Shown: one piece after another, positions 12,357-34,631 of the stretch
How positions within the stretch are numbered: the stretch's first letter is position 1
Layout: each line of letters starts with the position of its first letter
Assembly (NCBI RefSeq): GCF_003324485.1
Contig: NZ_QODK01000006.1
Location: forward strand, 1-64,000
Direction of reading: 5' to 3'
Origin: Cohaesibacter intestini
Lineage (GTDB): Bacteria; Pseudomonadota; Alphaproteobacteria; Rhizobiales; Cohaesibacteraceae
DNA length: 64,000 bases
Position numbers and translations under genes: made by a program
Notes under the pieces: model-generated
What the model was told of the DNA's origin: nothing
Databases searched by the model: none
What the model saw: only the letters and a program-made list of their open reading frames with translations

Positions 12357-12426
12357 TCCATCATATCCGAATGTTTGGGAAGATAGGAGAAATAAATAGG
12401 CGCCAAATTCTTGATGGGACTAAAAC

Positions 12427-12663: not shown

Positions 12664-12826
12664 CAGACCATCGTGACTTGTTAGGGGTGATTGGGCGTCG
12701 CTTTACCCAAAGAGCGCCTGTTTCTAAACCCTGTTCATTGAGATGGCGCGGCAGCAAATTGAAACTTTCGAAGATTATATAATGCCGCGCCTTCTCAAGC
12801 AACCATCTACTTCAGAGGAGGACCAA

Positions 12827-13105
12827 ATGCAAAGCCGCGTTACAACCTCAATTATCCATTTCGATCATCCATTTCAATTTCCCGGATCCGACAAGACTTA
12901 CCCTGCGGGAGACTACGCGCTTGTTCGAGAAGACGAGGCAATAGAAGGCATCTCATGGATGGCATATCGCTGCAAATCAATTTGCATCGATGTTCCCTCC
13001 ATCGGCTGGGCCAAAGGCCAAACGGAACGCTACACCGTTGGTCAAGACCAATTGACCGCCATGGTCGAGCGGGATAGGCGAACCGCCGATCGCCCTTGCG
13101 CCTAA
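12827..13105 (+). CDS. Conserved hypothetical protein, 92 aa
   Basis: The ATG at 12827 follows the very strong ribosome binding site GAGGAGGACCAA, so I reject the longer frame beginning at 12743. The protein has beta-rich patterns (TTSIIHFDHPFQFPGSDKTY, then PAGDYALVREDEAIEGISWM) and ends in a short basic tail. There is no signal peptide or membrane segment and I cannot assign a function. Its place in the small-gene run suggests shared regulation. Confidence 0.65.
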   Translation: MQSRVTTSIIHFDHPFQFPGSDKTYPAGDYALVREDEAIEGISWMAYRCKSICIDVPSIGWAKGQTERYTVGQDQLTAMVERDRRTADRPCA

Positions 13106-13194
13106 CCCTGAATCTTGAAGGGTGATGCAAGCAATGAGGCAACCATTCGGAGCCGTCATATTCTCAAACCGGTTACAAAGTGAAGGGGAGATCA

Positions 13195-13527
13195 ATGAAG
13201 AAAATGAACGATAAAATGCATTCGAAGCAGCATCAGATGACACTGTGCCTATGGGTGGACGAAGGAGGTGCCATTGAGAAAATCGGCAATATTGACACAT
13301 ATGGCCAGCATCAAGAAACCGATGGTTTCTGGACCATCGATACCACCGACAGCATGGCGACCGCCTGCCGAGGCGGGAGGATCGATATGTCGCGCAGCGT
13401 GTCGTGCGCGATTGCGCGGTCTATAGACAAACCGGAAGAAAGCCTGCTGCAGCTGCTAACCGTTGGCATCCTTCCAAAAGCCAGCAAGGGAAGCCCGTTT
13501 TTCAGCCGTAGATCATCATGGGCTTAG
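13195..13527 (+). CDS. Hypothetical protein, 110 aa
   Basis: The ATG at 13195 follows GAAGGGGAG; a GTG 15 bases upstream is in frame but would overlap that site. The product is basic at the N-terminus (MKKMNDKMHSKQHQMTLCLW) and has no hydrophobic segment. Similarity to known families is not apparent. It overlaps the next gene by 10 bases, so the two are probably translated together. Confidence 0.5.
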   Translation: MKKMNDKMHSKQHQMTLCLWVDEGGAIEKIGNIDTYGQHQETDGFWTIDTTDSMATACRGGRIDMSRSVSCAIARSIDKPEESLLQLLTVGILPKASKGSPFFSRRSSWA

Positions 13528-19876: not shown

Positions 19877-20104
19877 TTAGGTGTTATATCCCGCCGTTTT
19901 AAGCTTGGTTATAAGCCCTTTGGCGTATGTGGTGGCGCGTAGGTCTAGTGGGCACTCTTGCGCAAGTTGAAAGCCATACTCTCCCGCCGCAGCTGTTTTT
20001 GTGATGATCTCGGCTACCCTGTTGCCGTCAAAAACCGCTTTGGCGATTTTTTCCCGCTTATCTTCGGCCAGCTTTAGGGATTTATTGGCAGGGGTGAACT
20101 TCAT
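19877..20104 (-). CDS. Small hypothetical protein coupled to integrase remnant
   Basis: A 75-residue basic, helical protein (LAEDKREKIAKAVFDGNRVA and ITKLKTAGYNT). Its ATG overlaps the TGA of the recombinase fragment upstream (ATGA), so it was probably translated with an integrase gene. I know no function. It could be an excision or integration accessory factor; that is inference from the overlap alone. Confidence 0.5.
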   Translation of the reverse strand: MKFTPANKSLKLAEDKREKIAKAVFDGNRVAEIITKTAAAGEYGFQLAQECPLDLRATTYAKGLITKLKTAGYNT

Positions 20105-20163
20105 GCGAGGTAGTCTTTCGTTACGTCAATTCTGTTGTGTCCCAGCTCATTAGAGAGGGTCAG
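20101..20163 (-). pseudogene. C-terminal remnant of a tyrosine recombinase (integrase)
   Basis: Translating the minus strand gives SNELGHNRIDVTKDYLA and then a stop. This is the conserved end of a phage-type integrase: the LGH motif and the tyrosine nucleophile (DYL). An in-frame stop lies 20 codons upstream and nothing recognisable precedes it, so only the tail of the gene survives. It marks the left part of the accessory island and sits about 160 bases before the HEPN/Toprim gene, which points away from it. Confidence 0.65.
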
Positions 20164-20324
20164 TCATGCCGCCCTATCTAAGCGCCGCTTCACCAAGGTC
20201 CTCAACGCGCGGTTAGTGACATTTTGAGATTATGGGGTACAACTGCCCACACACTCTCAACGCATGGTACGATACAGATGCGCTGAAATTAAGTAGTGAC
20301 ATGTTTTGGGGAAAACTTCGACTG

Positions 20325-21611
20325 ATGGGAACCGAGATTCAACTTACAATAGCTGGTGTATCTTTATCCTACGCCAAGAACCACATAGGTGTAGACTTCG
20401 GCTTTCTGTTCCAGGACGGTGACACAGCGCGCCGAAAGTTGGATGGGATCAACTACGAGTATTACGAAGATCACCCTGAAGAGGCCGCAGATCTCGATGA
20501 GTTCGAGGAAGTGTTTGCCCGGCCTCTATCGCGTGTATTGCCCCGCCTGCATCTTTTGGGGTTTACGATCGAGACGGCACGCGCTGAGTACGAAGCGGTA
20601 ATAGCCGAAGCACAGGAAATCGACTCCTACAGAACCCCTCCGGAAGAGCCTAACCTTCTGACCTTTGACGAATATTGTTGTCTGGCCTGTCGCTATCCGT
20701 TATCGACCCTCAACGATGGAGCCGAATTTGACGACGACGAAAGGGCCAAAGGAAAGCTGGTATCCGACGAGGATTTCCAACGTCTACCTTGGACGGAAAA
20801 CTCCAATACGTTTTGGTCCGAGACAAGCTATTTCGGCGCGAAAGTAGCTATTCTCAGTGCATCGTCGATGCTTCTGGTTTTTGCCCTCAATCCCGCCAAT
20901 CTAAGTGTCGATGTCGTCTGGGAGTTTGGTCCGCTGGTCCATTCAGGTTGGGAGCCTCGCAACCTCTTTCAACCCGGTGCAAGGCGGAATCAAAAAGTTC
21001 TAGTCGCTACCGAGGGCGCATCGGATGCTCGGATCATAAAACGCGCCCTCGACATCTTGCGCGCTGATGTCGCTGACTTTTTCAGTTTCGTAGACGTCGA
21101 CGAGCGGCACCATTTTTGGGGAACGGGCAACCTCGTCAAATTTGCAGAAGGGCTTCTCCGCATCGACATACACAACAAAGTGCTCTTCGTTTTCGATAAT
21201 GATGCGGAAGGCGTGGATGCCTATAAGAAGCTCGATGCTCTCAACCTACCACCTAATATGCGATCAATGTTGCTGCCCAAACTCGATGAATTCCGACAGT
21301 TTCCAGCGCTTGGTCCAGAGGGTATTAATATTACCGACATCAACGGGCGAGCGGCGGCGATCGAGTGCTATCTCGATCTGAATTTGCCTAATCGGCCGCC
21401 TGCGCAAGTTCGCTGGAGCAACTATAAAAAAGATATTGATGCTTGGCACGGAGCCTTAGAGTTCAAAGAAACTTACCAGAGGCACTTTGACAAGCAGCCA
21501 TCCGAGGCACTTAGAGAGGGTCCGTACGAAACGTTAAAATTACTAAAATTGCTGGACTCCTTGATCGCCGAGGCTGCGTTGCTAATACCCTCCGTAAGCG
21601 AAGTCATCTAA
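20325..21611 (+). CDS. HEPN/Toprim-associated domain protein (putative defence nuclease)
   Basis: A 428-residue protein. The N-terminus (MGTEIQLTIAGVSLSYAKNH then FLFQDGD) matches the domain named HEPN/Toprim N-terminal. The C-terminal half is a Toprim nuclease or primase-type domain: the glutamate motif VATEGASDARIIKRAL (E about 230) and the metal-binding DxD in VFDNDAEG (D291, D293). Family members typically begin MG, which decides the start at 20325 over an upstream in-frame ATG at 20232. It is convergent with the SIR2-HerA operon (264 bases between stops), has its own promoter and is probably an independent anti-phage or toxin-like module; that role is inference from family and context. 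Confidence 0.75.
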   Translation: MGTEIQLTIAGVSLSYAKNHIGVDFGFLFQDGDTARRKLDGINYEYYEDHPEEAADLDEFEEVFARPLSRVLPRLHLLGFTIETARAEYEAVIAEAQEIDSYRTPPEEPNLLTFDEYCCLACRYPLSTLNDGAEFDDDERAKGKLVSDEDFQRLPWTENSNTFWSETSYFGAKVAILSASSMLLVFALNPANLSVDVVWEFGPLVHSGWEPRNLFQPGARRNQKVLVATEGASDARIIKRALDILRADVADFFSFVDVDERHHFWGTGNLVKFAEGLLRIDIHNKVLFVFDNDAEGVDAYKKLDALNLPPNMRSMLLPKLDEFRQFPALGPEGINITDINGRAAAIECYLDLNLPNRPPAQVRWSNYKKDIDAWHGALEFKETYQRHFDKQPSEALREGPYETLKLLKLLDSLIAEAALLIPSVSEVI

Positions 21612-21875
21612 GTAAATCGAAGACCCGTTCTCGGGAAGTGTTTGCTGTTGCGAAAGGCCCCTACATTTTTAATGTCTTGATTGGGCTCGGAGAGGTCTGG
21701 TGCAATGCGTCATCACCGGAACACACTCATCCAGGCTCGCGTTTAGCAATGGCGGCCCATTCTTGCAGTTCGTCCAGACTTCACTCGATTGCCGCTATCA
21801 GTTTGCTGCCAATGTTCCCGAAGCGTCCCATGGAAACAGCTTGTATTGCTCAGTAATTTCCCAATTAGTGCAGCC

Positions 21876-23618
21876 TCAAGACGAGCTTTGCTTGCGCCAA
21901 GAGCGAATAGCAATCTGGGTATCAGACTTTGGAGTTTCTTCATTCCAGCGATCCCAGAAGGCTACGGTTTGGCTATCTGGTTTCATATTTGGCTCAGCAA
22001 TACGAATTCGCGTAGGCAGCAGGCTAGCATCGCCAACAACGAGTGCTTCGCCGATATCCAAGACGGGCAATAGGTCCCCGAAGCTTCCGAGGCTATCTGG
22101 TAAAAGGCGCTTGATGACGCTTTGATCGTCGCCGTTGGTCAGGCGCATAGCGACCACGTTATTACACTGGCTGAGGACGGTTCGGTTCACTTCTGAAGGT
22201 CGCTGACTGATTACAACCAGCCCAATCCCGTACTTTCGGCCCTCTTTGGCAATCCGTTCAAATATCTCAACAGCAACTGCGTCAGAACTGTCCGCCTGCA
22301 TACGCTCTGGGATGTACAGGTGGGCCTCGTCACACATGATTGCGATTGGATGGCGCTTTTCTGATTTTGTCCAAAGGCTCGTTGAGAAGACAATCTGAGC
22401 CAAAAGGCTCACCATCAGCGGCAGCACATCAGATGGCACCTCTGAAAAGTCGATGATTTTGATGCCGCCTTGATTGTTGTGTTGTGCGCCACGACCTGCG
22501 GAGATGGCGTGGACCATCCTCTCGAGCCAAGCCATGTCCATACATTCAGGTGGAGGCTGGAACAGGAAAGCTAGGCGGCGGTCATGCCTTTTGGCTTCCA
22601 GACGACCGATCAGCCGGCTGAGCTTGCCGTAGTATGGGCCCTGCTTATCTGCCCGAGCTCCGGGTACCATTTCTTCATCCAGTTGCTGAAGCTTCTTTAG
22701 GACGTCATTGATATCGAAGGGCACCGGACTGTCGATCGTGAAGTTTTCAAGGACATCTTTGTGCACGACTGGGTCAAGTGAACTCTTTTTCGCGTCAACG
22801 ATGGTACGAGTCATGATCATTGACTGGTTCGGCGCATTCTGATCACTTCGGTCTACAAACATCGACAGTAAGGCTTCATAGCCCAGCAACCAGTATGGCA
22901 AGTGCAAGACTCCGTCTGCCAAACCACGAGCATGTTCTATGTCTGATGGTCCGGCGATCCGAAGGTGCCTAAAGGCTTCGCCTTTTAGCGGGCGATATTC
23001 GCCATGAATATCGAATAAGACGGCATTCGCTTGCGGCAATTCGGCTATCTGATCGAGCAGCCGAGCTGTTGTCCAAGACTTACCAGAGCCAGTGCTTCCA
23101 ACTATGACCGCGTGGCGCTGAAAAAGTTTGTTCCCATTGAGATAGGCAGTAGCTTCTTCATCCAACGTGAAATGACCCAAGGATAACTTCGGGCCGTCTG
23201 TGTTTACATCGGAGATAACTTGCATAAATTTAGTAAGCCGTTCACCTTCCAAAGAAAAACAGTTTGCGTCGATTTCAGGAACGGTCTCAAGGGTGCGGCG
23301 AAACACATTCGCAGCACTACCGACCCGGTCGAGTAGTGTGCCGATGAGGGTAATTTTTACGAGGTTATTCTCGTTTGGTACAAGGCCTTCATCGTCAGGA
23401 TCGGCCTCCACCAGTTCGCGCGTATCTGGCTTCCTTGTTATCTTCACGACAATACCAATCAGGTGCTGGCCAGGCTTGCTGCTTTGGAGAACGACCAGCC
23501 GGTTGACTTGGAGACGCTTGAGCCGATCTAGGTCATCGACGCGAATAGTGACGGCAGCAGTGTCGACTGAAATGACGCTTCCGAGAGCTTCTATGTCGGC
23601 GAAATCAAAAATAGACAT
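21876..23618 (-). CDS. herA: HerA-family ATPase/helicase of a SIR2-HerA defence pair
   Basis: A 580-residue FtsK/HerA-superfamily DNA translocase. The N-terminal HerA barrel (about 1-100) is followed by the RecA-like core with Walker A GSTGSGKSWT (about 174-183), DIHGEYRPL, Walker B IAIMCDEAHLYIPE (about 425-438) and the sensor/arginine region VVISQRPSEVNRTVLSQCNN. HerA proteins assemble as hexamers. The start at 23618 is 9 bases after the stop of the SIR2 gene, so the two form an operon. SIR2-HerA pairs are known anti-phage systems in which the complex depletes NAD+ and can act on DNA. Function here is by homology and gene order. Confidence 0.88.
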   Translation of the reverse strand: MSIFDFADIEALGSVISVDTAAVTIRVDDLDRLKRLQVNRLVVLQSSKPGQHLIGIVVKITRKPDTRELVEADPDDEGLVPNENNLVKITLIGTLLDRVGSAANVFRRTLETVPEIDANCFSLEGERLTKFMQVISDVNTDGPKLSLGHFTLDEEATAYLNGNKLFQRHAVIVGSTGSGKSWTTARLLDQIAELPQANAVLFDIHGEYRPLKGEAFRHLRIAGPSDIEHARGLADGVLHLPYWLLGYEALLSMFVDRSDQNAPNQSMIMTRTIVDAKKSSLDPVVHKDVLENFTIDSPVPFDINDVLKKLQQLDEEMVPGARADKQGPYYGKLSRLIGRLEAKRHDRRLAFLFQPPPECMDMAWLERMVHAISAGRGAQHNNQGGIKIIDFSEVPSDVLPLMVSLLAQIVFSTSLWTKSEKRHPIAIMCDEAHLYIPERMQADSSDAVAVEIFERIAKEGRKYGIGLVVISQRPSEVNRTVLSQCNNVVAMRLTNGDDQSVIKRLLPDSLGSFGDLLPVLDIGEALVVGDASLLPTRIRIAEPNMKPDSQTVAFWDRWNEETPKSDTQIAIRSWRKQSSS

Positions 23619-23627
23619 ATGGAATAC

Positions 23628-24650
23628 CTAAAGGACTAAGTTGTTGAAGCCGTCGATTGACCAAAGATCTGGTGTCGTGACATCGACACCTTCCGGAGCA
23701 GTGGGCGAGTAAACTCTGCTCCCGATTCCAGATCGTTCGATCCCCAAGTAGTTCGTGCCCGCCTTGCTTTTCAGGAAGTCTTTGGCCTCTTCCGTCAGGG
23801 TTCGGGCCAGTACCACTGTTGGGACGTTCCGTTCCCGGCATCTCTCGATGATTTTGGGGTGGATGTGCTGATCTCGAAACCCAAAACCCACACAAAGGAA
23901 GGCGGAAGCGTTCTTCAGTGCAGCATCGGCCCCATTAATGGTTGTCCTAAATGGGTCCTCGTAGGTCTTTTCGTATTTGTTCAAGCCTGGCGTTACGATC
24001 AGGGGCGTGTAGTGATCTTTGGATGGCAGCTCGAACACTGGCAACCCTACAGTTCTGTCGTCTGCGGTGCGGAACCAGTCAAGAGACCCATGGATTTTCC
24101 AAATCTTTACTACACGGGCAGCCTTAGATCCGTGCATCATTCTCAAGCGGCCCGTACTTTCCCACGTCTGAATGTACCCCGGCGCGAAGCCCGTTTGAAA
24201 CAAAACATTCTTGGAGTTGCAGGCAAACTCGGCAACGCGATCATAATTCGTCGTAACCACGTGTACCTCGCTGTGGGTACTGCTGAACATCCTGACCAAT
24301 AGTCTTCCCAAAGAGAAGTCGCCATTTGAGGCGGCGTCCTCCAAAAGCCTCTTGTCTTTTTCGTTTACGCAACGCCAAGTAAGACCTACAATTTTTGACA
24401 ACAGCGATGCAGGCAGTGTCTTTCCTTCCAAGGCCGCTTCAAGGTGATCGCCGCTGGCCAGCGCTGTTTTGACCAGCAGCCACGCGTCACTTTCAGCTTT
24501 ACCGTAGGTCTCCAAATTTTTGCAAAGGTAAGTGCTCAGGTCACCCATACTTGGGAGACCGTGAGGCATCGATGCCCCGCTGCCAAGAACGATTGTAGGG
24601 CAACCTTCAAAACAGGACTGGGCGGTCTTAGCAATCTGTTCTTCCGTCAC
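23628..24650 (-). CDS. sir2: SIR2-domain protein of a SIR2-HerA defence pair
   Basis: A 340-residue sirtuin-fold protein. NAD-binding motifs are visible: VLGSGASMPHG (about 21-31), TTNYDRV (about 133-139), the catalytic histidine in WKIHGSLDWF (H about 187), and CVGFGFRDQHI near the C-terminus. Stand-alone SIR2 proteins like this act as NADases in abortive-infection defence, rather than as deacetylases. The start is a GTG. It is the first gene of the operon with the HerA ATPase 9 bases downstream. The 398 bases upstream carry no gene and should hold the promoter. Confidence 0.87.
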   Translation of the reverse strand: MTEEQIAKTAQSCFEGCPTIVLGSGASMPHGLPSMGDLSTYLCKNLETYGKAESDAWLLVKTALASGDHLEAALEGKTLPASLLSKIVGLTWRCVNEKDKRLLEDAASNGDFSLGRLLVRMFSSTHSEVHVVTTNYDRVAEFACNSKNVLFQTGFAPGYIQTWESTGRLRMMHGSKAARVVKIWKIHGSLDWFRTADDRTVGLPVFELPSKDHYTPLIVTPGLNKYEKTYEDPFRTTINGADAALKNASAFLCVGFGFRDQHIHPKIIERCRERNVPTVVLARTLTEEAKDFLKSKAGTNYLGIERSGIGSRVYSPTAPEGVDVTTPDLWSIDGFNNLVL

Positions 24651-25048
24651 GCGCAGTTATTTCCCCATAACCGTGTAGAATGGAATCGGACTTTCATCAC
24701 TGTATTCAACAATCAGAGATTGGAAAGTGATCTTTTGACCAACTCTACCGGGGAAGGGGTATGTTTTTTTGAAACGTCGGATAGAACATCTTTGGACTGG
24801 CAAGACGCAACCTGCTCTTTTCTATCCCAACAGACTTTCGTGCATTCTGCAGAAAATTTCCGCTTTCTGCCCGAACGAGCCGTGATAGCCAGGACGAGCT
24901 TCGATACCCCTTGAATGTCAGCTCTTGCCTGCAGCATCGAGGATTGTGCACGTGCAGGAAATGTCGGCAATCCGCCCTGATTGCCAGATATGCATTCAGT
25001 GGGCATAAAATTTCGGCGTCGCAGCGAATGGCAAAAAAGTCCGAATTC
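24651..25048. other. Intergenic region upstream of SIR2-HerA
   Basis: No supported gene. The open frames on both strands have no ribosome binding site or recognisable motif. It must contain the promoter of the SIR2-HerA operon near its left end. The right end borders the IS1182-type insertion. Confidence 0.4.
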
Positions 25049-26542
25049 TGTTGAAAAATTAAGTGCTGCAGCGCAAAACGGAGGGCGGTTTTGGGAGGCT
25101 CGACGCTCCCTCATTCCGGAGTTGGGAGCAGCTTTGCCATTTTGCGCAGGTTCTGCGCTGTGGCTGCCAGTGTGAACTCGTCTTTTGCTCCATTTGGGCC
25201 TCTAAGACGCAGTCTGTTCAGCCCCATGATCTTCTTCATGTGAGCGAATAGCATCTCCACTTTGCGCCTGGCGTGCCTCGAGGCGATAAAGGCATCGGTA
25301 TCTGCCAGATCTCGGGCGAAGTCTCGCGCTCCTTCATGGATCGATCTGGTGATGTGTCGGGTGGCTGTGTTGGGGCAGCATCTGAACTTCAATGCGCAGT
25401 GCTGGCAGTCCGCTTTAGCAGCACGATATCGGATATTTTCATCACCCTGCACCTTGGGCCGGATTGTCTGGAATTGACGGCGACTGGGCAGCAGGTCTTT
25501 GCCATCAGGGCAAATGTATCTGTCATTCTCATAGTCAAATATGAAGTCGGGCCTCGAGAATGTCTGGTCGAGCCGCTGCGATCTGTCGAGAACCGGAACA
25601 TGCGGCTCGATACCTTTCTCATGAACCAGCCAAGCAAGTGTCTCGGCATTGCCATAAGCGCCATCACCGACGAAGCGTTCTGGATAAATTCCGAACTTCT
25701 CTTCAACACGATCAACCATATCCAGTGCGGCATTGACTTCCGCCTGCCGGATCGGCGCTGTTGTTTCAACATCAACAATCACAACATTATCCAAGTCCAC
25801 CAGATAGTTGGTGGAATAGGCAAAGATCGAATAGGCCTTCTTTGCTCCAGTAAAGCGTGCTGCCGGGTCAACCGGCGAAAGCACCTTTGGTTTCACGGGC
25901 GTTGCAGCGCCGAAAGCGGCATCATCAAGGGTCTCAAAGTATTCTTCTGTCGCCCGCGTGATCCGTTCTGGCGTCCAATCTGATGCTTCAACTTTGTTCA
26001 GCCGCTTTGCATCAGCTTGCACGATGGAAGCATCAACGCCCAAAGCCTCCCCACCGACAAGCCCCTCTGCGATGCAGCGGGCCAACACCAGTTCGAAGAG
26101 ATGACGGAAAAGATCGCTATCCCGGAAACGGCCATGTCTATTCTTGGAAAATGTCGAATGGTCAGGAACAGGGTCATCCAAGTCCAAACGGCAAAACCAT
26201 CTATAGGCCAGGTTCAGTTGAACTTCCTCACAGATGCGCCGCTCGGAGCGAATGCCCATAATGTAGCCGACCAACAACATCCTGATCATCAGTTCTGGAT
26301 CAATCGAAGGGCGGCCCTGGCTGCTGTAATAGGGAGCAAGGAAAGATCTGACCTCACTCAGATCGAGAAAGTGGTCGACCTTCCTGAGTAAGTGGTCAGA
26401 AGGAACGTGACTTTCAATCGAAAACTCATAAAAGAGTGCTGCCTGCGCAACTTGCCTTGGCCCCAGCATTCGCAAATCCCCCCTTTTCCTAAAAGGATTG
26501 AATCAGGACCAAGCGATTACTTCAAGAGCGACTTTTTCAACA
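25049..26542 (-). mobile_element. IS1182-family insertion sequence
   Basis: About 1.49 kb with one transposase gene. Candidate ends are TGTTGAAAAA at 25049-25058 and its exact inverse TTTTTCAACA at 26533-26542, both just outside the gene; similar GTTGAAAAA ends are common in this IS group as I recall. No clear short target duplication flanks them. The 16-base stretches at 25018-25033 and 26572-26587 outside the ends differ at one base only. Confidence 0.75.
25111..26475 (-). CDS. IS1182-family DDE transposase
   Basis: A 454-residue, apparently intact transposase. The N-terminal DUF772-type DNA-binding part is visible (PSIDPELMIRMLLVGYIMGI, RRICEEVQLNLAYRWFCRL, PDHSTFSKNR). The DDE domain shows GVDASIVQADA (first D), FVGDGAYGNAETLAWL (second D) and the C-terminal RRKVEMLFAHMKKIMGLNRL with the catalytic glutamate. 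The length is normal for IS1182 elements and no frameshift is seen, so the element may still be mobile. It separates the SIR2-HerA operon from the mobilisation module. Confidence 0.9.
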   Translation of the reverse strand: MRMLGPRQVAQAALFYEFSIESHVPSDHLLRKVDHFLDLSEVRSFLAPYYSSQGRPSIDPELMIRMLLVGYIMGIRSERRICEEVQLNLAYRWFCRLDLDDPVPDHSTFSKNRHGRFRDSDLFRHLFELVLARCIAEGLVGGEALGVDASIVQADAKRLNKVEASDWTPERITRATEEYFETLDDAAFGAATPVKPKVLSPVDPAARFTGAKKAYSIFAYSTNYLVDLDNVVIVDVETTAPIRQAEVNAALDMVDRVEEKFGIYPERFVGDGAYGNAETLAWLVHEKGIEPHVPVLDRSQRLDQTFSRPDFIFDYENDRYICPDGKDLLPSRRQFQTIRPKVQGDENIRYRAAKADCQHCALKFRCCPNTATRHITRSIHEGARDFARDLADTDAFIASRHARRKVEMLFAHMKKIMGLNRLRLRGPNGAKDEFTLAATAQNLRKMAKLLPTPE

Positions 26543-26711
26543 CCATTTCCGCACTGCCGCCACTAATGCAGGTCGCAGCGAAGGGCAGGTATACCGCCCC
26601 CAGTTGACCCTGCTTGCGGCAACGTAACCGAAGAGATGCGGCTCAGGCTGGCTCAACAACGAGTCTACGCGGTCGCTTTATAAAGAGAGACAAAAAAGTA
26701 GGCCACCCAAT

Positions 26712-28676
26712 TTACTCAATGGTGTATTCGCCACTCTTGTCCTTCGGCGGCCTTTTCCCCCTAGGGGCTTGAGGAGGCTTCCGCAGAAGATGTGAGAGAT
26801 TATTCCTCGCAAGTGCAATCTGGCGTAAAAGTTCCGGATCCTGCACACCGCCATAGGCTTTTTGGACACCTTCATGATACTGGGTGAGCGACTGAAGCTC
26901 ACTTCGCATTTCTTTCCGAGCTCGCTTGACGACCACGTCCCCGACCCTTTTTGCAATCGTGTTGGCAATGGTGTTAATGATACGTCCCATCGGTTTCGAG
27001 AATTTTTCAAGGCCCTTGAGCTCGACCTCAATGTCCATGGTCAGGGCGTCATCAGGCTCGGCCGCCGGATCGATCTTGGGGGTGACCTTAACATCGATCA
27101 AGGACGGATCCTTCTCGATGGCTCGCTGGCACGTTGCTGGCTCGGACTGCCAGATCCTGCGCGCATATGCCATTATGATGCCGGAGGCAGATTTGACAGA
27201 CTGCCAAAGGGCCTTCCGATCAGCGTCATCCTTCGGAGCATCAGGACCATAGACAAGCCTTTCGTTCGTTTCTCCATCTGCTGGACGGAACTGAATCTCG
27301 CCCTGCTCTACCGCCTCCAATCCGCGCTCGAATGCCTGCTCTTTATCGCCGAACGTGAGCCTGTCCGTTTTCAAGTCCTCCTGACTTTTCGCTAGGGCAT
27401 TCTGGGCAGCCTCCAGCTCTGCTTCTTTCCTATCGAGTTCTGCCCTGGCCTTCTCCAGTGAGGCCTTTTTCTTGTCGAGACCGTCGGATTGCTCCTCTAG
27501 TTTCGCGATGATTTTGTCGGGATTGGAAATGATGTCGTCCGGCGTGCCAAACGCTTCCTCATGTTCCTGCAATAAGGCCTTCCTCAATCTGCGGGTCCGG
27601 GCTTCTTCCTGTTCCTCATGCGTTACAAAACCACCGGCAACGAGGATCTCAATAGCGGTCTTCTGCCTCTCATCTAGCCTTGGCTTCTTGAGTTCGGACA
27701 GAACTTCTGACTGTTCTTTGATCGCCCATATCATGCGGGCTCTCTCAGATCCCGCAGGAATGGGGTCACGGGCGAGAAGATCCGGGTCGTGAGAATACAA
27801 ATCACTCAAGTCCATGGCTTGAACAACCTCGATCGCATTGTGTCCTTCTGCTTCGGCTTCACGCCTCGCCTCTGCCCGCGGCTCGCCCCGTGCGATGTTC
27901 ATGTGCCTTCGGCCTGGATCCCGAAACCATTCGCCTACCGCATCCTGCGCACGCTCATAACCACTCTTATTTTCGGCATCCCGAGTGCTGCAAAGCAATG
28001 GGTGGAGGGCCGAACGAAACAGGCTCCGTCCATTTGCATAGCGTGCCGATTTAGGTAACTCGACAATGTCATAGATCAAGGCATGGAGGTGGATAGCTTG
28101 CTCGTCCATGTCGACCCGGCAGTATTTCAGCATGTCGCCGAAATTATGCTGTAGGAAGGCAAGGCCTTCGTCCACAAACGCATCGCACTTGCCGATGTCA
28201 AACTGTGCGAGCTTGCCCTTGTCATCGAGAAACTCAAGAAGATCTTCCGGCGGACAATCATCATCCGCGCGGAAATGATCTCGGTGGATCGTCATGATGG
28301 CTTCGCGCAACGGGCCTTGCGAGTTTTTACTCTCCTTCCAGGGCGGTTTGGCTCCCGCCAGCATCACTTGCTCGGCGGCGTTGGCTCCTCGAGTCTTGTG
28401 AGTACCCTCCAAATTTGAGGTGTGGTTTGATAATCGGAGTAGAGCTTCCTGGGCCTCGATCTCTTTCGCAATATCGTTGCTGCCGACAAGCACGCGATTG
28501 AGATGTCGCCGAGCCGGATCACAGTGCGATTGGTCACCGATTTCTCGTTTCCCGTGCTTGACCATATCGGCGACATCTTTCGGGTATAGACTCCTGAATC
28601 GCAAGACGATCATATGCATCCCATATGCCTGCATCATATCAGCGTAGTCACTGCCCTTGTCACTTATCTGCGCCAT
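26712..28676 (-). CDS. mob: MOBV (Mob/Pre) family relaxase
   Basis: A 654-residue plasmid-mobilisation relaxase that nicks DNA at oriT. The N-terminus begins with the Mob/Pre pattern (MIVLRFRSLY, then HCDPARRHLNRVLVG), and the metal-binding HxH triad appears as DEQAIHLHALIYDIV (H about 196 and 198). A long charged coiled coil follows (about 330-440, SLEKARAELDRKEAELEAAQ), then a basic C-terminal region. The ribosome binding site is AAGGAGGAA. It encodes no type IV secretion genes nearby, so transfer would depend on a helper. An inverted repeat 116 bases upstream is the natural oriT candidate. Confidence 0.82.
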   Translation of the reverse strand: MAQISDKGSDYADMMQAYGMHMIVLRFRSLYPKDVADMVKHGKREIGDQSHCDPARRHLNRVLVGSNDIAKEIEAQEALLRLSNHTSNLEGTHKTRGANAAEQVMLAGAKPPWKESKNSQGPLREAIMTIHRDHFRADDDCPPEDLLEFLDDKGKLAQFDIGKCDAFVDEGLAFLQHNFGDMLKYCRVDMDEQAIHLHALIYDIVELPKSARYANGRSLFRSALHPLLCSTRDAENKSGYERAQDAVGEWFRDPGRRHMNIARGEPRAEARREAEAEGHNAIEVVQAMDLSDLYSHDPDLLARDPIPAGSERARMIWAIKEQSEVLSELKKPRLDERQKTAIEILVAGGFVTHEEQEEARTRRLRKALLQEHEEAFGTPDDIISNPDKIIAKLEEQSDGLDKKKASLEKARAELDRKEAELEAAQNALAKSQEDLKTDRLTFGDKEQAFERGLEAVEQGEIQFRPADGETNERLVYGPDAPKDDADRKALWQSVKSASGIIMAYARRIWQSEPATCQRAIEKDPSLIDVKVTPKIDPAAEPDDALTMDIEVELKGLEKFSKPMGRIINTIANTIAKRVGDVVVKRARKEMRSELQSLTQYHEGVQKAYGGVQDPELLRQIALARNNLSHLLRKPPQAPRGKRPPKDKSGEYTIE

Positions 28677-28791
28677 CCATTTCCTCCTTGGTTGTTTGAG
28701 GAAATGGGGCTCCGATCAAAAACCCGCATCCCTTCTCAAGAAAAATTTTCGATTTATTTTCCGGGATGAGGCCGCAGGAAGGTACTCACTA

Positions 28792-28830
28792 GGCAAGTGC
28801 GGAATTTCTCGTATAAATTGCACACTTGCC
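28792..28830. repeat. Imperfect inverted repeat, candidate oriT
   Basis: Left arm GGCAAGTGCGGAATTT (28792-28807) and right arm AAATTGCACACTTGCC (28815-28830) pair at 14 of 16 positions around the 7-base loop CTCGTAT. The repeat lies directly upstream of the relaxase gene, where MOBV systems place the nick site and its hairpin. A second, shorter repeat (GGTGC at 29309-29313 with GCACC at 29321-29325) lies further upstream. Confidence 0.5.
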
Positions 28831-29737
28831 AAAGTTCGCTCAGGTTAGGGCGCAGCCCTTCCCGAGACCCAACACCCGCAAAGGATGAGGCGCGCTGCCC
28901 TCTTCCCTTGACCCTGCTCCCAGCCGCTCCACGGAGGCCAATGGGGTCTATCGCACCCCCTCTTGAATCACCCCACTCGTCGCCGACGGGCCTGCCGGGC
29001 GGCTGGGGGAAACACGCTCCACGCTCTTGCCCCCAGACCCCCATCTCGTTCCCGGAAAGGAGCGTGGCCAGCTCCTTCCCGAACCCATCCATGCTTTTCG
29101 CCGCTGGCATGGTCGCATGGTGGCAACGGCCCTGCCCGGCCATTGCCCCCTGGTCGACATGGACGTTCCCGACCTGCCGTTTTCTCGCTCTGTTCACGAT
29201 CCTCTCCTCTTATTGCCTAGCGATCGCGGAAGCACTTTTTTTGCTCCCACACCGGATATGAGGCAATTTTCCCGGGAGTGGTAACGGCGAGATGATTTTT
29301 TTCAAAAGGTGCATAATTACGCACCCACAACCTTGTTGCAAAAATCGGCAAGGCTGTCATAGACGATCTGGCTCAGCAGACCGGCAAAAGGGACGCCCGA
29401 TATCGGCATTGGTCCTGCGGGCGCAACACCGGGCGTTGCCAGAAGAAATGGGCAAGCCACTCTCATCATAGTTTCCTATGACGAGGAAAATCCGCCTGCC
29501 GAAATCGCTGGCGTGGTCCGTGAGGACCTGACCGGTACCGACGCCAATTTTGTATGCTGGTTGGAATTGATGGACTTGTCCTGGAGGTTGCCTGCCGACC
29601 TTCCTTTGCTGGAGGCCGGGCAGACAACCATTCAGGTCAATCTCGAGAAAAAATCGAGGCTGCGACGTACCGCCTGGCAAATCCCGGACCCAACAGGTCC
29701 GAACCCTTTTCACGCCATTGCTAAAGGAGATCTACAT
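28831..29737. other. Gene-poor region between mob and next gene
   Basis: About 0.9 kb with no gene that I can support. From about 29370 one plus-strand frame stays open into the gene at 29738 and reads protein-like (LIIVSYDEENPPAEIAGVV, WLELMDLSWRLPADLPLLE), but it lacks a start codon with a ribosome binding site. It may be the end of an older gene that lost its beginning. The part 28850-29220 is richer in C than its neighbours. It probably holds oriT-associated DNA. Confidence 0.4.
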
Positions 29738-30148
29738 ATGGCGCAAAACCAGGAAATTACCCCCCAGACCGATACAGGTACGGCCTCTTACTTCGACACC
29801 AAGGTCCTCATAAGGGAAACCGTTGAAGCGATGGAAGAGGCGAGGACGGCCCTCGACCAATTGGCCAATGGCGAGCCTGAAAATCTCGCCTTGCCTGCGG
29901 ATGCCCGAAAGCGCCTGCAAGCCGCCCTCGCCGATCGCAATGTCCTCAATGAGGAATTTATCAATGCGACCTCAGACCTGCTCGACCATGTGCCGTATTA
30001 CGAGCCTGAACTGGATCAGTTTGGTAATTACAAACGCCACCGGACCCACCGCGCTCTGTCGGTAGCAAGAAGTGCTGCATGCTATGTCATGGACCTACTC
30101 GCCGCGGAACATGCAGTCGGAAAAATCCGCAAGGATCGTCCCGAATAA
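29738..30148 (+). CDS. Hypothetical protein, 136 aa
   Basis: The ATG at 29738 follows a strong ribosome binding site (AAAGGAGATCTACAT). The product is acidic and helical (LIRETVEAMEEARTALDQLA, LPADARKRLQAALADRNVLN) with a tyrosine-rich stretch (HVPYYEPELDQFGNYKRHRT). No membrane segment and no family recognised. A hairpin with a T-run follows at 30183. It lies between the relaxase and the phosphoesterase, so it may be cargo or backbone of the mobile element. Confidence 0.6.
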   Translation: MAQNQEITPQTDTGTASYFDTKVLIRETVEAMEEARTALDQLANGEPENLALPADARKRLQAALADRNVLNEEFINATSDLLDHVPYYEPELDQFGNYKRHRTHRALSVARSAACYVMDLLAAEHAVGKIRKDRPE

Positions 30149-30182
30149 AAGCGGTCTCCCATGCCTAGCCCCAACAACAAAG

Positions 30183-30215
30183 TCGCCTCGCCACATGTCC
30201 GTGACGGGGCGATTT
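30183..30215 (+). terminator. Rho-independent terminator
   Basis: A stem of TCGCCTCGCCAC with GTGACGGGGCGA (10 of 12 matched, one of the rest a G-T wobble) and a 6-base loop, followed by TTTTT. It is placed 35 bases after the 136-residue gene. A 54-codon open frame (30161-30325) crosses it and is therefore not called. Confidence 0.6.
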
Positions 30216-30498
30216 TTCGAAAGGCACTTGGCCTTGCCGATCTGTCCGGCCCTACCAGCTGTGGGCCAGACAGGCCGCCTCACCTTCCCTACTTCAACCT
30301 TTCGCCAACGGATCCCACACGATAGCTGCTCATCCCCGTCGGCAAGCCATTCACTTTGGCTTGCCACCCTTGTTCCGCAATCCAGCTATTCCACCATCCC
30401 CTGCCAGCCAAGAGCACCTGTCGTCTTTTCCCAGACCGCAAAGAGGCTTGGATGGCAAGTGACTTCCTTCGTATCCCCCCATATAGGAGAACACACCC

Positions 30499-31563
30499 AT
30501 GATATCAGCATCACCCCAGAAAAGGCTCAACCGAACCACACGCCTTCTTCTATCCGCAGATGCCCATCTCGGCTCCCCATTCTCGGCCGTTACAAAACGC
30601 AACCCGGAATTGGGCACGCTGCTACAACAGGCCAGCCTCGACAGCTTTACGTCTATCGTCGATCTGGCGCTTGACGAGCATGTTGATGCCTTGATCCTCG
30701 CCGGCGACGTATTCGACAGCTCCACCCAGGATCCCAAGACCCGGGAATTCTTTACCACCCAGATGGCGCGTCTTGCAGAACAAAACATCCCCGTAATCGC
30801 CATTCGGGGCAACCATGATGCCCTCTTGGGAAATGACGCCTACAAAGAGTTCGGAGCCAATGTCTATCTGTTGCACGCCGACTCGCCAAGCGTCGAAATC
30901 GGAAACATCGTCTTTCATGGCTTGTCGTTCGACACAGACAACCCATCAGCAAGCTTGCTCCCCCAATATCCTGATCCCGTAGCAGGACGGAAGAATATCG
31001 GAGTGATGCATACCTCCGTGGAGAAAATGCCCGGCTATAACACCTATGCCCCCTGCACGTTGGAAGAGCTCAAGTCCCATGGTTATGACCTATGGGCCCT
31101 CGGTCATGTTCATGCCGACTTCATCGACACATTGGGATCTGTTCCTGTGGTAATGCCCGGAATTCCGCAACCTCGGAAATTCGAAGAGCGATTGGGCGGT
31201 TTTGCCGTCTTGGCTGAGCTAGGTGAAGAAGCAGCATCTTTCCAGTGCCACCAGGTCGGCAAGATCGAATTTGTCGAATGCAATGTGGACCTGTCCGGGT
31301 GTGCGGATGAACGGGAAGTAACCCAAGCCCTGCGGGACGGGCTCCAGTCTATCCAGAATCCCGACCGCCAGGTCGCGGTGCGCCTGAAGGCATCCTCGTG
31401 GCAGCATTCAAGCGACTGGCTGACGGACCTCGCAATGGAAGAACTGGAAGGCATGGAGCGCGTCCACCTCGACAAGGCAATAGTCGCCCCGGCCCAACGA
31501 CCATTGGGATTGCTTCCGACGGCCCCTCGGGACGCCGCCCCAACCTCGCCGATCTCGGCCTGA
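30499..31563 (+). CDS. SbcD/YhaO-like metallophosphoesterase (DNA repair exonuclease family)
   Basis: A 354-residue calcineurin-like phosphoesterase with all metal-binding motifs of the Mre11/SbcD type: SADAHLG (D21, H23), LAGDVFDSS, IRGNHDALLG, MHTS and ALGHVHADF. A C-terminal domain follows the nuclease core. The ribosome binding site TAGGAGAACA supports the ATG at 30499. Such nucleases normally work with an SMC-like ATPase (SbcC, Rad50, YhaN) encoded next door. None is present here, so it either partners with a distant gene or works alone. Its setting in the mobilisation region makes a role in element maintenance or defence plausible, but this is inference. Confidence 0.8.
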   Translation: MISASPQKRLNRTTRLLLSADAHLGSPFSAVTKRNPELGTLLQQASLDSFTSIVDLALDEHVDALILAGDVFDSSTQDPKTREFFTTQMARLAEQNIPVIAIRGNHDALLGNDAYKEFGANVYLLHADSPSVEIGNIVFHGLSFDTDNPSASLLPQYPDPVAGRKNIGVMHTSVEKMPGYNTYAPCTLEELKSHGYDLWALGHVHADFIDTLGSVPVVMPGIPQPRKFEERLGGFAVLAELGEEAASFQCHQVGKIEFVECNVDLSGCADEREVTQALRDGLQSIQNPDRQVAVRLKASSWQHSSDWLTDLAMEELEGMERVHLDKAIVAPAQRPLGLLPTAPRDAAPTSPISA

Positions 31564-31893
31564 TCCGCCGACGACGGCATGCCCGGCGGGTGTCACCGCC
31601 GGGATAGTGCAGGCTGGAAACGACCTGCCCATCGATGACTTGGCTCATAGTCGTCCGTAGCACCAACGACCCTCGATCCTCACCGACGAAACGTTCCCGC
31701 CCGCCATTTCCCCGCCAAATAAAGATATAAATTCAGCTACTTAATCTCCTTCAGGCATCCGACCAACGATCTCCTGCGCCTCTCAGGCAGAGGGTGTTCC
31801 GCCCGTCAAGAAAGTTTTTTTCGCGTACCTGAGTCGAACCCATTTCCTCCGGACCGCGCCTTCCGGCGCTCCTTAGGAAAGAACTGTTCGACC
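31564..31893. other. Intergenic with GC-rich hairpin
   Basis: No gene seen. A perfect 8-bp stem CCCGGCGG/CCGCCGGG (31582-31603, loop of 6) lies 18 bases after the phosphoesterase stop and could end its transcript, although no T-run follows. Confidence 0.4.
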
Positions 31894-32046
31894 ATGTGGC
31901 AGAAAGAAACAAAATCGACCGACCATCCGGAATTCCAAAAGATACGGCTGCATCCAGCTGTCGACCTACGCGGCGAGGATTACCTGCTCGCGATAAGGCT
32001 CGTCGGCCAGGAAATCGTGCGTCGCCTGAAGGAAGGCGATCAGTAA
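31894..32046 (+). CDS. Possible small protein, 50 aa
   Basis: ATG at 31894, with AGGAAAG about 13 bases upstream, which is rather far. The translation looks protein-like (FQKIRLHPAVDLRGEDYLLA, IRLVGQEIVRRLKEGDQ): balanced charge and an amphipathic helical C-terminus. I do not recognise a family. It is convergent with the LysR gene, whose stop lies 120 bases further on. Confidence 0.4.
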   Translation: MWQKETKSTDHPEFQKIRLHPAVDLRGEDYLLAIRLVGQEIVRRLKEGDQ

Positions 32047-32166
32047 AACTTTTCGGTTATGCCAAACCGAAAGCCGTCGTTCGCTGCGCCCTGCACAAAC
32101 GACGACAGCGCGGACTTTACTGCTATTCGTGCGAACGATCAGAATGACCGCTTTCATCCGAGACCG

Positions 32167-33045
32167 TCAGGTGTTCTCGGTTGAGTGCGACTTAAGCCAG
32201 GTCACAACGTTGGCTACCGACTCATTGTATTTGGCGGTTTGCGGCATAAGAACATAGAAATCGTTTCTGCCCGCGTACCAGGCTACACCTACCTCGACTA
32301 AACGTCGGGCTTCAAGGTCATGAGCCACCAGAAATCGGCTTACCAAGGCCACACCTTGCCCGGCGATAGCCGCATCGACAGCAAGAGATGTTTGGCTCAG
32401 ACGAAGGTGGCGAGGAGACTGGTCATGTACACCCAAATGCGCAAGGTAGCTCGGCCATAGGTCATGGGTGTCATGGATCTTTGGTTGCTTGGCGAGGGTT
32501 TCTGGCTCAAGAAGATTATCGCCCTTGTCCGCAAATTTTGGCGCGGCGACCGCGATGAGCGATTGTTTGAACAAAAGCGTTACATCCAGCGAAGCGCCAA
32601 AGGGTGGGGATCCTTGGCGCACTGCAAGGTCTATCCCTTCGCTATGAAAGCTTGAGACTTTCTCAGTCGCCATGATCCGCAAGTCAACATCCGGGTGCGC
32701 TGCCGTAAAGTCAGGCAGATTGGGGATCAGCCATTTCGCAGCAAAGGTCGGAGTGACACTGATAATGACTTTGTTCAGCTCTGGCTTCAGTTCCGCAGTT
32801 GCGGATCGAAGGTCTGCGAACACTCCAGCAATCCGGTTGTGATAGCTGCGCCCGACTGAGGTGAAAGCCAAGCCCTTAGGAACCCGTTCAAACAAGACCA
32901 CATCAAGATGTGCTTCGAGCTGGCGCACATGTTGCGCAACGGCACCCTGCGTGACACCCAATTCATCTGCGGCAGAGCGGAAACTGAGGCGGCGACCTGC
33001 TGCATCAAAAGCACGCAAACTGTTGAGTGGGGGAAGTATTGTCAT
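32167..33045 (-). CDS. LysR-family regulator (GcvA-like)
   Basis: A 292-residue LysR-type transcriptional regulator. The N-terminal winged helix reads SLRAFDAAGRRLSFRSAADE then LGVTQGAVAQHVRQLEAHLD; the linker helix and type 2 periplasmic-binding-like effector domain follow. The opening (LPPLNSLRAFDAAGR) is typical of the GcvA subgroup. It is transcribed divergently from the SDR gene with 99 bases between starts, the classic arrangement for a LysR regulator and its target. Confidence 0.88.
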   Translation of the reverse strand: MTILPPLNSLRAFDAAGRRLSFRSAADELGVTQGAVAQHVRQLEAHLDVVLFERVPKGLAFTSVGRSYHNRIAGVFADLRSATAELKPELNKVIISVTPTFAAKWLIPNLPDFTAAHPDVDLRIMATEKVSSFHSEGIDLAVRQGSPPFGASLDVTLLFKQSLIAVAAPKFADKGDNLLEPETLAKQPKIHDTHDLWPSYLAHLGVHDQSPRHLRLSQTSLAVDAAIAGQGVALVSRFLVAHDLEARRLVEVGVAWYAGRNDFYVLMPQTAKYNESVANVVTWLKSHSTENT

Positions 33046-33144
33046 TTTGCAATAGTATTTCTACTGTCAGGTAGCATCAATTCTCAATCGAACTTTCTTA
33101 CAAGGGATACTATAACACGGTTCAAAGACGAAAGGACATGAGAA

Positions 33145-33849
33145 ATGGCAGTAGAAAAAGTGGCTCTGATCACAGCAGGCGGCAGCGGCATGGGTGCGGA
33201 TGCAGCCCGAAAACTGGCAAAAGATGGGTTCAAAATCGGCATTCTGTCTTCGTCCGGCAAGGGGGAGGCACTAGCCAGTGAACTCGGCGGTTTTGGCGTG
33301 ACTGGTTCAAATCTTGATGGAGATGCGCTGAACGCTTTGGTCGAGGGCGCGAAGGATCGTTGGGACCGAATTGATGTCTTGGTAAACTCTGCTGGTCACG
33401 GCCCGAAGGGGCCAGTTCTTGAGATCAGCGACGACGACTGGCACCAAGGCATGGAAGTTTACTTGATGAACGTAATCCGTCCAACACGACTGGTCACACC
33501 AGTAATGCAGAAGCAGGGCGGCGGGGCGATCATCAACATCTCAACCTTTGCGGCCTTCGAGCCAGACCCTCTTTTTCCAACGTCGGGGGTCTTCCGAGCC
33601 GGGCTTGCCGCATTCACAAAGCTCTATTCGGACAAGTATGCGTCAGAGAACATTCGCATGAACAACGTCCTGCCCGGTTTCATAGACAGCCTGCCCGAAA
33701 CCGAAGACCGCAAAGCGCGTATTCCCATGGGACGTTACGGTTCCGCTTCGGAGGTGTCTTCTCTGATCGCGTGGCTCGCCTCGGAAGATGGTGGCTACAT
33801 GACGGGACAAAACCTGCGTATCGACGGAGGGTTGACCCGTGCAGTCTGA
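33145..33849 (+). CDS. Short-chain dehydrogenase/reductase with altered active site
   Basis: A 234-residue SDR-fold protein. The nucleotide-binding glycine motif is ITAGGSGMG, and LVNSAGHG and the serine in INISTFAAF are in place. At the catalytic position the canonical Tyr-x3-Lys is replaced: the segment reads FPTSGVFRAGLAAFTK, giving Ser-x3-Arg. This could change or abolish classical oxidoreductase chemistry. The C-terminus (GGYMTGQNLRIDGGLTRAV) is normal. The ribosome binding site is AAAGGA. It is divergent from the LysR gene and overlaps the next small membrane protein by 11 bases. Confidence 0.85.
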   Translation: MAVEKVALITAGGSGMGADAARKLAKDGFKIGILSSSGKGEALASELGGFGVTGSNLDGDALNALVEGAKDRWDRIDVLVNSAGHGPKGPVLEISDDDWHQGMEVYLMNVIRPTRLVTPVMQKQGGGAIINISTFAAFEPDPLFPTSGVFRAGLAAFTKLYSDKYASENIRMNNVLPGFIDSLPETEDRKARIPMGRYGSASEVSSLIAWLASEDGGYMTGQNLRIDGGLTRAV

Positions 33850-34090
33850 TGCCTTGGCTCTTGCAGCACCGCGCGAGCGTCTTGTCTTCACGGTCAAGTG
33901 GGGCGCATCCGCCGTACAGATTTTGGGATACACCGCGACGGGGTTTGGCTGGACACCTTGGAACCTCTACCTGTTTCTTGTCGGTGTCGTGGGTTGGTTT
34001 GCCGTCGGAGCGCTATGGAACGACAAGGCGCTGATGCTTGTCCACCTTGTCGCGCTTGGCGCGATGATTGCTGGTATGGCAAGCGGCTGA
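33839..34090 (+). CDS. Small membrane protein, DUF6552-like
   Basis: An 83-residue protein with two membrane helices (SAVQILGYTATGFGWTPWNL and LYLFLVGVVGWFAVGALW, then MLVHLVALGAMIAGMA). The pattern matches the DUF6552 group as I remember it, common in marine alphaproteobacteria. It starts with GTG inside the end of the SDR gene (11-base overlap), so it is translationally coupled. Function unknown. Confidence 0.65.
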   Translation: MQSDALALAAPRERLVFTVKWGASAVQILGYTATGFGWTPWNLYLFLVGVVGWFAVGALWNDKALMLVHLVALGAMIAGMASG

Positions 34091-34320
34091 CGATCTAAAG
34101 CTGCCATTGGTGGATATTGCAGCATTGGTCAAAATGGGCTCTGAGTTTGAATTTGCTGCGTCCGGCACGAACGGCGGCTCTTTGGTCGCTTGGTGAATTG
34201 GAATCTTTCAAGGTGTAGCTATCTGGTCGAGGTGGGGCCTTCATTAACGTATTAATGGGCAATTCAGTAGGGCATGAGGCCTGCTCTACGTCGCACGATC
34301 AATGCTATCCTCACGAATAG

Positions 34321-34480
34321 TGTGGCTCCTAAATTGGGAGCCACACCAGTTTATGCACAACGCTTAACCGCAATAGGAAATGCAATAGGAACGCAATAGG
34401 TTTTCCCGGTTAAGTGTAACCCAAAATGGCTCATTTCCGCCATTTTTGAGTCAAGTTCGAGTCCGGCCTGGGGAGCCATA
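34321..34480. other. Attachment-site-like region with tRNA 3' end
   Basis: A compact, structured region. A perfect 9-bp hairpin TGTGGCTCC/GGAGCCACA lies at 34321-34345. Three copies of GCAATAGG at 34370, 34382 and 34393 are spaced 12 and 11 bases apart (about one helix turn) and framed by CTTAACCG (34363-34370) and CGGTTAAG (34407-34414). AAAATGGC/GCCATTTT lies at 34423-34446. At 34455-34478, GTTCGAGTCCGGCC followed by TGGGGAGCCA is the T-loop, T-stem and acceptor end of a tRNA, but the matching 5' part is absent. This is what an integrase leaves at the distal end of an element inserted into a tRNA gene. The phased repeats resemble integrase arm sites. Confidence 0.55.
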
Positions 34481-34482
34481 TT

Positions 34483-34516
34483 AGGGTCTTCTGATTAAGT
34501 TCAGAAGGCCCTTTTT
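34483..34516 (+). terminator. Rho-independent terminator after the tRNA end
   Basis: AGGGTCTTCTGA pairs with TCAGAAGGCCCT (one G-T wobble) around a 6-base loop and is followed by TTTTT. Its place directly after the tRNA 3' fragment suggests it is the terminator of the original tRNA gene. Confidence 0.75.
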
Positions 34517-34631
34517 CGTTAAAAATCAGCCATCATCATTAGACGACAAAGACTGTTGTATGAAGAATGCAATGGAAAATGGGTCAGAAACCCGAACAGT
34601 GCAAATGATCGGGGAACTTTCCAACCAGGAG

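Follow-up and report, generated by a model that had tools for sequence, protein, structure and literature searches.

A relaxase gene, several defence genes and a fragment of a tRNA gene lie close together between 19.8 and 34.5 kb of the stretch analyzed here, which raises the question of whether they form one mobile element and, if so, where its integrase is encoded. The stretch, hereafter the window, spans positions 1–64,000 of contig C6 (223,169 bases) of Cohaesibacter intestini, whose genome is assembled in 27 contigs (4.79 Mb, completeness 99.37%). An initial annotation, made from the sequence of the window, had inferred a formerly integrated, mobilisable and defence-bearing element with a tRNA end, a pair of nested elements being held equally possible. 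Comparison of 18 Cohaesibacter genomes, this one and 17 relatives (denoted by G numbers, their loci by L numbers), supports an element of this sort: the core of the tRNA end is duplicated, the intact tRNA gene exists, and islands of the same kind occur in G008, G009, G010 and G012. We conclude that an integrative mobilisable element (IME) probably inserted into the Cohaesibacter tRNA-Asn gene and that its right-hand portion is in the window. Its integrase probably lies on another contig, C2, because the only other copy of the core is in an intact tRNA-Asn on C2 beside an integrase gene. The features of the right end are the following.

34455–34478, plus strand: att core, the exact 24-base 3′ end of tRNA-Asn, repeated once elsewhere in the genome, within the intact tRNA-Asn at C2:2681–2756
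34367–34400, plus strand: right arm, in which NNNGCAATAGG stands three times in direct orientation, probably as arm sites of the integrase
34479–34577, plus strand: left-arm-like remnant right of the core, with a terminator-like repeat and one weak arm repeat at 34566

The tRNA 3′ fragment was where the initial annotation had placed it; 23 bases are exact at 34456–34478 and one further shared G extends the core to 24. When up to three mismatches were allowed, the whole 4.79-Mb genome contained two copies of the core, whereas chance matches in the window to a 19-base piece with three mismatches averaged 0.02. The second copy (C2:2681–2703, minus strand) is the 3′ end of an intact tRNA-Asn(GTT), 2.7 kb from the contig edge, which in the genus comparison, as distinct from a whole-genome tRNA scan, was the sole full-length tRNA-Asn match of this genome. 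The intact tRNA and the core duplicate that had been expected to the left in the same contig thus both exist, but on C2. Directly beside the tRNA-Asn, and reading away from it, C2:982–2553 encodes a 523-aa protein with a PHROGs integrase match (E 1e-15) and 63–65% identity to the 545-aa integrases of four tRNA-Asn islands. It is this island-family integrase that adjoins the tRNA; that the tail at 20.1 kb, which the annotation had listed among the parts of the island, is the integrase of this element is not supported.

The four islands (G008, G009, G010 and G012; 17–21 kb, bounded by core repeats) occupy the same tRNA-Asn in the order tRNA-Asn, 545-aa integrase, cargo and, 17–21 kb on, a second core. 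Among the tRNA-Asn neighbourhoods of 13 relatives (14.5–20 kb each; G003, G005, G006 and G007 were left out), the island integrase was present in six, two of which (G014 and G001) have a broken copy, and absent from seven. To the left of the window core lies the right arm of these sister islands, with three GCAATAGG repeats; the arms of all four are 76–79% identical to the window, and 34370–34558 has 78% identity with the right end of the G010 island. To the right, 34455–34577 is 83–85% identical to the DNA that follows tRNA-Asn in G010, G014, G012, G008 and G009, and a single weak arm repeat is found there, compared with three on the left. Because a left-arm-like remnant stands right of the core, we read the core as a tandem junction, at which the right end of a newer element abuts the remnant of an older one, an arrangement that the initial annotation had not considered. 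The layout recurs in G010, where a truncated integrase (L026:1504–2049) follows the second core. A 75-bp sequence at 34130–34205 recurs with 82% identity at C2:787–861, near both presumed element ends and inverted relative to the element.

In all four sister islands defence-type cargo sits between integrase and relaxase. PADLOC was run on ten proteins, not on whole islands. The cargo consists of type I restriction-modification (R-M) genes in G008 and G009 (the methylase and restriction genes of the latter are 96–98% identical to those of the former), SngABC in G010, and the CRISPR type I-E genes Cas3, Cas8e and Cas7e in G012. Judging from their sequences, the SIR2-HerA and HEPN/Toprim genes of the window fit this pattern and would have a protective effect. 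In G012, L027:5163–18782 holds CRISPR type I-E genes, array-like repeats (seen by eye), its own relaxase and core repeats, all inside the tRNA-Asn island. An element of G013 at a site other than tRNA-Asn carries Cas9 and Cas1. There, at L066:2828–11347 and 11749–13353, a relaxase and the block and genes A and B described below are directly beside Cas9 and Cas1, a Cas2-like open reading frame (ORF) and array-like repeats were seen by eye, and a serine recombinase overlaps a tRNA-Met; L066 is possibly a mobilisable type II CRISPR-Cas element.

The mobilisation functions of the window begin with a relaxase and a candidate origin of transfer (oriT).

26712–28676, minus strand: MOBV-like relaxase, 654 aa, with motif III DMDEQAIHLH instead of HxDExxPHUH
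28783–28830, minus strand: candidate oriT, a hairpin followed by TAGTGAG|TAC on the relaxase strand

Relaxase and upstream hairpin were both found where annotated; the hairpin folds at −11.9 kcal/mol as DNA (z −2.8), a value matched by 1 of 200 shuffles. From its sequence, the relaxase is classed as MOBV-like and no further. The first H of motif III is D also in the relaxases of G013, G017, G009, G014 and G002 (DxDE type). By eye, without a MobM alignment, the place of motif I (HxxR) reads HGKR in the window protein and HAAR in G013, and the likely place of motif II (NYD/EL) reads NRVL. We then surveyed the 400 bases before the structured block described below at 14 block loci. The complement of the candidate nick motif, TACTCACTA, was present 82–91 nt before the block at all six loci with a DxDE relaxase (the window, G013, G017, G009, G014 and G002) and at none of the seven with an HxDE relaxase, with up to one mismatch allowed; at the relaxase-less locus L097 of G015 the motif reads GACTCACTA. 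The top-ranked hairpin lay directly beside the motif in G017, G009, G014, G002 and L097. As far as these sequences go, the oriT type follows the relaxase type and the block does not. Two relaxases, at L098:5938–7842 and L027:16848–18782, look recombinant, combining an HxDE-type N-terminal part with a C-terminal part that resembles the DxDE relaxase of G017. A relaxase search of the genome contig collection gave no match, the plasmid collection yielded 11 records with relaxase relatives of at most 35% identity, and the phage collection, searched with the G013 relaxase and not with that of the window, contained no relative of the former.

Beyond the candidate oriT, DNA comparison of 19.7–39.6 kb with the genus gave short matches at 28.8–29.0 kb in several places, all but one of them relaxase loci.

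28874–29038, no strand assigned: conserved structured block, about 150 nt in the sister elements, covarying

A covariance model (R1) built from ten block sequences, with E-values that are rough owing to a short calibration, detected 13 copies in 9 of the 18 genomes at E ≤ 0.001. Ten of these built the model and match by construction; three are new (one in G014, a second one in G012 and a shortened one on C20 of G009). Twelve of the 13 copies, including all three new ones, adjoin a relaxase gene, the exception being L097 of G015, which has none. At E ≤ 0.01 a search of the order matched 11 of 397 genomes (ten of the genus, including this one, and G393) and a search of the class matched 1 of 385, this genome itself; both used stricter filters, at which weak matches are lost. 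The G393 match (L124, 30.5 bits) had no relaxase that we could find beside it and was treated as doubtful: it was excluded from the strand count and the nick-motif survey and included in alignment A6. The G002 match (29.6 bits), found only at a laxer limit, was kept on account of the nick motif there and of the DxDE relaxase downstream of it. The block occurs with two oriT types. Neither window 28600–29500 nor the G017 block had a match in the plasmid collection, one exact pattern of the block had none in IMG/VR, and no Rfam family reached its gathering score, the best sub-threshold overlap being RF_site5 (20.1 bits against 35).

In alignment A6 (14 distinct rows), 94.4% of 572 cells pair and 20 of the 44 pairs have changes on both sides; none of 500 shuffles reached any of five measures. 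Such both-side changes occur in five of six helices, and structures slid along the alignment drop to 27–49% paired. For the ten-sequence alignment, alifold gave a consensus energy of −47.6 compared with a column-shuffled mean of −28.3 (z −4.7; reached by 0 of 200 shuffles). Mismatch cells lean to the plus strand, with 38 G-U versus 16 A-C (13 rows), the structure having been chosen on that strand. Judged informally by its 1- and 2-base gaps, the block is unlikely to encode protein.

At 12 block loci of the genus besides the window, the block is followed by two genes, A (about 190 aa) and B (about 120–160 aa), the second of which has a relative in the window.

29738–30148, plus strand: gene B, 136 aa, related to the gene that comes second behind the block in the sister elements

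The window protein is 31% identical to gene B of G013 over 103 positions (E 7e-10 in a single comparison). In G002, neither A nor B was found at E 1e-5, and in the tRNA-Asn islands of G008 and G009 both genes occur without a block that we could find, beside a relaxase of the MobA/MobL type. Neither A nor B matched PHROGs or any Pfam family above its cut-off (GNAT, E 0.07, and DUF2564, E 0.006, fell below theirs). Six relatives of gene A lie outside the window on contigs C1, C7 and C9 of the same genome, some of them as neighbouring copies. The recombinases near these modules fall into no fewer than four kinds, namely the tRNA-Asn integrase, the serine recombinase of G013 and 327–339-aa tyrosine integrases of two kinds.

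The part of the window left of the relaxase, together with a gene beyond gene B, completes the feature list.

19877–20163, minus strand: 75-aa ORF, preceded by a relic of a different integrase C-terminus
20232–21611, plus strand: HEPN/Toprim protein, 459 aa (PF18871, 171 bits, cut-off 25)
21876–24650, minus strand: SIR2-HerA pair, HerA at 21876–23618 and SIR2 adjacent at 23628–24650
25044–26547, minus strand: IS1182-family insertion sequence, transposase at 25111–26475, ends set where copies stop matching
30499–31563, plus strand: calcineurin-like phosphoesterase, 354 aa, SbcD/Mre11-like (PF00149)

The HEPN/Toprim gene, the SIR2-HerA pair and the insertion sequence were all present as first described. 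HerA and SIR2 gave full-length PADLOC matches (E 5e-243 and 2e-123) and scored far below the cut-offs of the NCBIfam anti-phage equivalogs (300 of 850 bits and 23 of 500 bits), and the transposase scored 401.6 bits with NF033551 (IS1182; cut-off 270); long copies of the insertion sequence across the genus are 89–97% identical. For the gene at 30499–31563 the description as a metallophosphoesterase stood, but its membership in SbcD is not supported (TIGR00619, 55.7 bits, below the cut-off of 77.65). The annotated integrase tail was recovered in part: there is no open frame, only a minus-strand stretch at 20101–20163 that ends in LSNELGHNRIDVTKDYLA and a stop, which we take, by eye and from its motif, to be an integrase C-terminus. 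It bears no resemblance by eye, without alignment, to the C-termini of the tRNA-Asn integrases, and looks like a relic of another integrase.

Left of this relic, the window from 2.8 to 19.8 kb, running from a GH94-type glucan synthase through a transporter that ends at 19789, recurs piecewise in relatives (long pieces mostly 86–95% identical, short ones down to 72%). These pieces sit away from tRNA-Asn, except that G014 has the synthase at a distance of about 15 kb. The homology stops at the stop codon of the transporter (19788) in G012, G017, G009, G004 and G010; beyond it all five relatives differ from the window, and G017, G009 and, for about 265 bases, G004 share their sequence. Among the best matches listed, none in the 17 relatives spans 19.8–34.5 kb, which leaves the island of the initial annotation unrefuted; the longest match inside this interval is SIR2-HerA in G015.

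Since the integrase tail looks foreign, the left part may be accreted. The cargo at 19.8–25 kb would then come, with the integrase relic at 20.1 kb, from another element, and the tRNA-Asn element itself would extend only over about 26.7–34.5 kb, an account with a real, if lesser, chance of being right. SIR2-HerA with about 350 bp of flank (21753–25005) is 91% identical at the DNA level in G015, there beside a tRNA-Ser, and since the encoded proteins are 96–97% identical, this cargo by its sequence has its own history; in addition, the insertion sequence parts the two halves. By contrast, the defence cargo of the sister islands lies between integrase and relaxase, which is where it would be expected here, and no second att repeat is known, in a search that covered the tRNA-Asn core only. 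The account is partly compatible with a tRNA-Asn IME, so that the likelihoods we attach to the two do not sum to one, and within the IME reading too the insertion sequence, like the cargo at 19.8–25 kb, may have been added later.

Several observations weigh against the IME reading as a whole. Integrase and window are on different contigs, and the two core copies, which we infer to be the ends of one element, are unjoined (C2 and C6:34455–34478). C2:1–1000 overlaps no other contig apart from the 75-bp match, and C6:1–127 is identical to C11:1–127. No C2–C6 join through shared contig ends was found, in a comparison that covered neither the ends of C1, C3, C4, C5 and C7 nor a number of far ends; the apparent sharing among C19 and C23–C27 is due to runs of N and is meaningless. 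With the 2.8–19.8 kb block lying away from tRNA-Asn in relatives, an element reaching from C2 to 34478 must contain this block, or a rearrangement must have joined the two. The right-flank genes are not adjacent to tRNA-Asn in G014 and G008, and an empty-site test by right-flank or downstream-of-tRNA synteny was rejected, the flanks being too variable within the genus. With Pfam, the C2 protein yields DUF6538 alone and no integrase family. The relaxase scores 36.5 bits (E 5e-9) with NCBIfam MobV, short of the cut-off of 100, and its motif III departs from HxDExxPHUH; in the window and in G013 another hairpin ranked first, and the hairpin next to the motif is backed by the fold in the former and by inspection by eye in the latter. 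Gene A was not recognised in the window (best 2.3 bits, rejected), the four sister islands lack any relative of the phosphoesterase, and the LysR and SDR genes have none above 31% in the neighbourhoods compared. As for the block, its opposite strand folds well too (−53.0 versus −39.3, z −3.7, reached by 0 of 200 shuffles), and the covariation alignment was fitted to the model and consists mostly of close relatives with one doubtful row (L124).

In an alternative account, the core at 34456 would be left over from an older element, and the integrase on C2 would belong to another insertion, whose attR had fallen into an assembly gap. The left-arm-like remnant after the core, the old remnant behind the island of G010 and the lack of a contig link between C2 and C6 argue for this explanation, which we nevertheless consider unlikely, as an assembly of such completeness contains just two core copies. 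Similarly unlikely is a third explanation, in which the block would serve the relaxosome as double-stranded DNA, for protein binding or as a promoter, and its apparent pairing would be incidental: its near-constant distance from the nick motif in DxDE loci and the mostly closely related alignment rows speak for it, and the both-side changes, the loss of pairing in slid structures and the alifold score speak against it.

Returning to the IME reading, we envisage that the C2 integrase, acting through the GCAATAGG arms, would recombine the 24-base core and release a circle, which the relaxase would nick at GTGAG|TA after the hairpin. Export would fall to a type IV secretion system from elsewhere. 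The structured block beside oriT would most likely start complementary-strand synthesis, or act as RNA during establishment; the circle would then re-enter tRNA-Asn, restoring the 3′ end of the tRNA, and HEPN/Toprim and SIR2-HerA would protect their host against phage. By now the element is probably stranded, because no VirB4 homologue (PF03135) was detected in its genome; this was the sole mating-channel family searched, and it was detected in 1 of 14 control genomes. The DNA between C2 and C6 is missing from the assembly.

Two roles for the block are favoured about equally, that of a single-strand origin and that of an RNA (leader or small RNA) serving A and B, and a relaxosome site also fits; an obligatory leader is disfavoured because G008 and G009 retain both genes without the block. 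We tentatively propose that the block is a new folded nucleic-acid part of the mobilisation machinery, and that block, A and B form a module that stays constant when the types of relaxase and oriT, the integrase and the defence cargo are exchanged. Cohaesibacter would thus share one transfer chassis for Sng, CRISPR I-E, Cas9 and SIR2-HerA, with a block-less version for R-M. The island itself is ordinary in kind, the unexpected part being the mobilisation module. Together, these elements suggest a route by which whole defence systems, including CRISPR-Cas, could pass between related bacteria via one tRNA site, and the structured element beside oriT offers a concrete, mutable target for roles in strand synthesis or regulation.

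The titles and abstract openings listed on MobV IMEs with defence, SIR2-HerA and Cohaesibacter genomic islands, like those on MOBV nick sites, single-strand origins and structured RNA with relaxase or oriT, describe neither these elements nor the block, which is weak evidence of absence. The closest known systems can be compared through parts of their published accounts. MobM of pMV158 cuts GTGTG/TT and MobSag cuts GTGcG/TT (PMC5090054). IMESag-rpsI, a MOBV1 IME of Streptococcus agalactiae, has a MOBV relaxase, an oriT with inverted repeats and a nick motif of the G/T kind (GTGcG/TT), a putative origin for the lagging strand (ssoA) and chromosomal excision (PMC5090054), all of them features with a probable or proposed counterpart in the Cohaesibacter element. 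By description, the Cohaesibacter element is set apart by its alphaproteobacterial host, tRNA-Asn target, defence cargo, DxDE motif III and a block that lacks an Rfam family. The oriT of pMV158 likewise has a hairpin and a nick motif by the mob gene, with GTGTG/TT there and GTGAG|TA here (PMC5863519, PMC5090054), whereas the window protein deviates in motif III, as judged without a MobM alignment. As the block may be, sso1 of ICEBs1 is a structured single-strand origin near the relaxase gene of an integrated element; it differs, as described in the excerpts consulted, in lying downstream of nicK and in having three stem-loops like pBAA1 (PMC4595007). With the SIR2-HerA anti-phage pair of the PADLOC models, the window pair, known here from sequence alone, shares two full-length adjacent genes, and differs in scoring below the NCBIfam equivalog cut-offs.

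Finally, three short stretches of the window (120–235, 21658–21760 and 24860–25047) recur widely in the genus at 72–90% identity, and the last of these abuts the insertion sequence both here and in G010.

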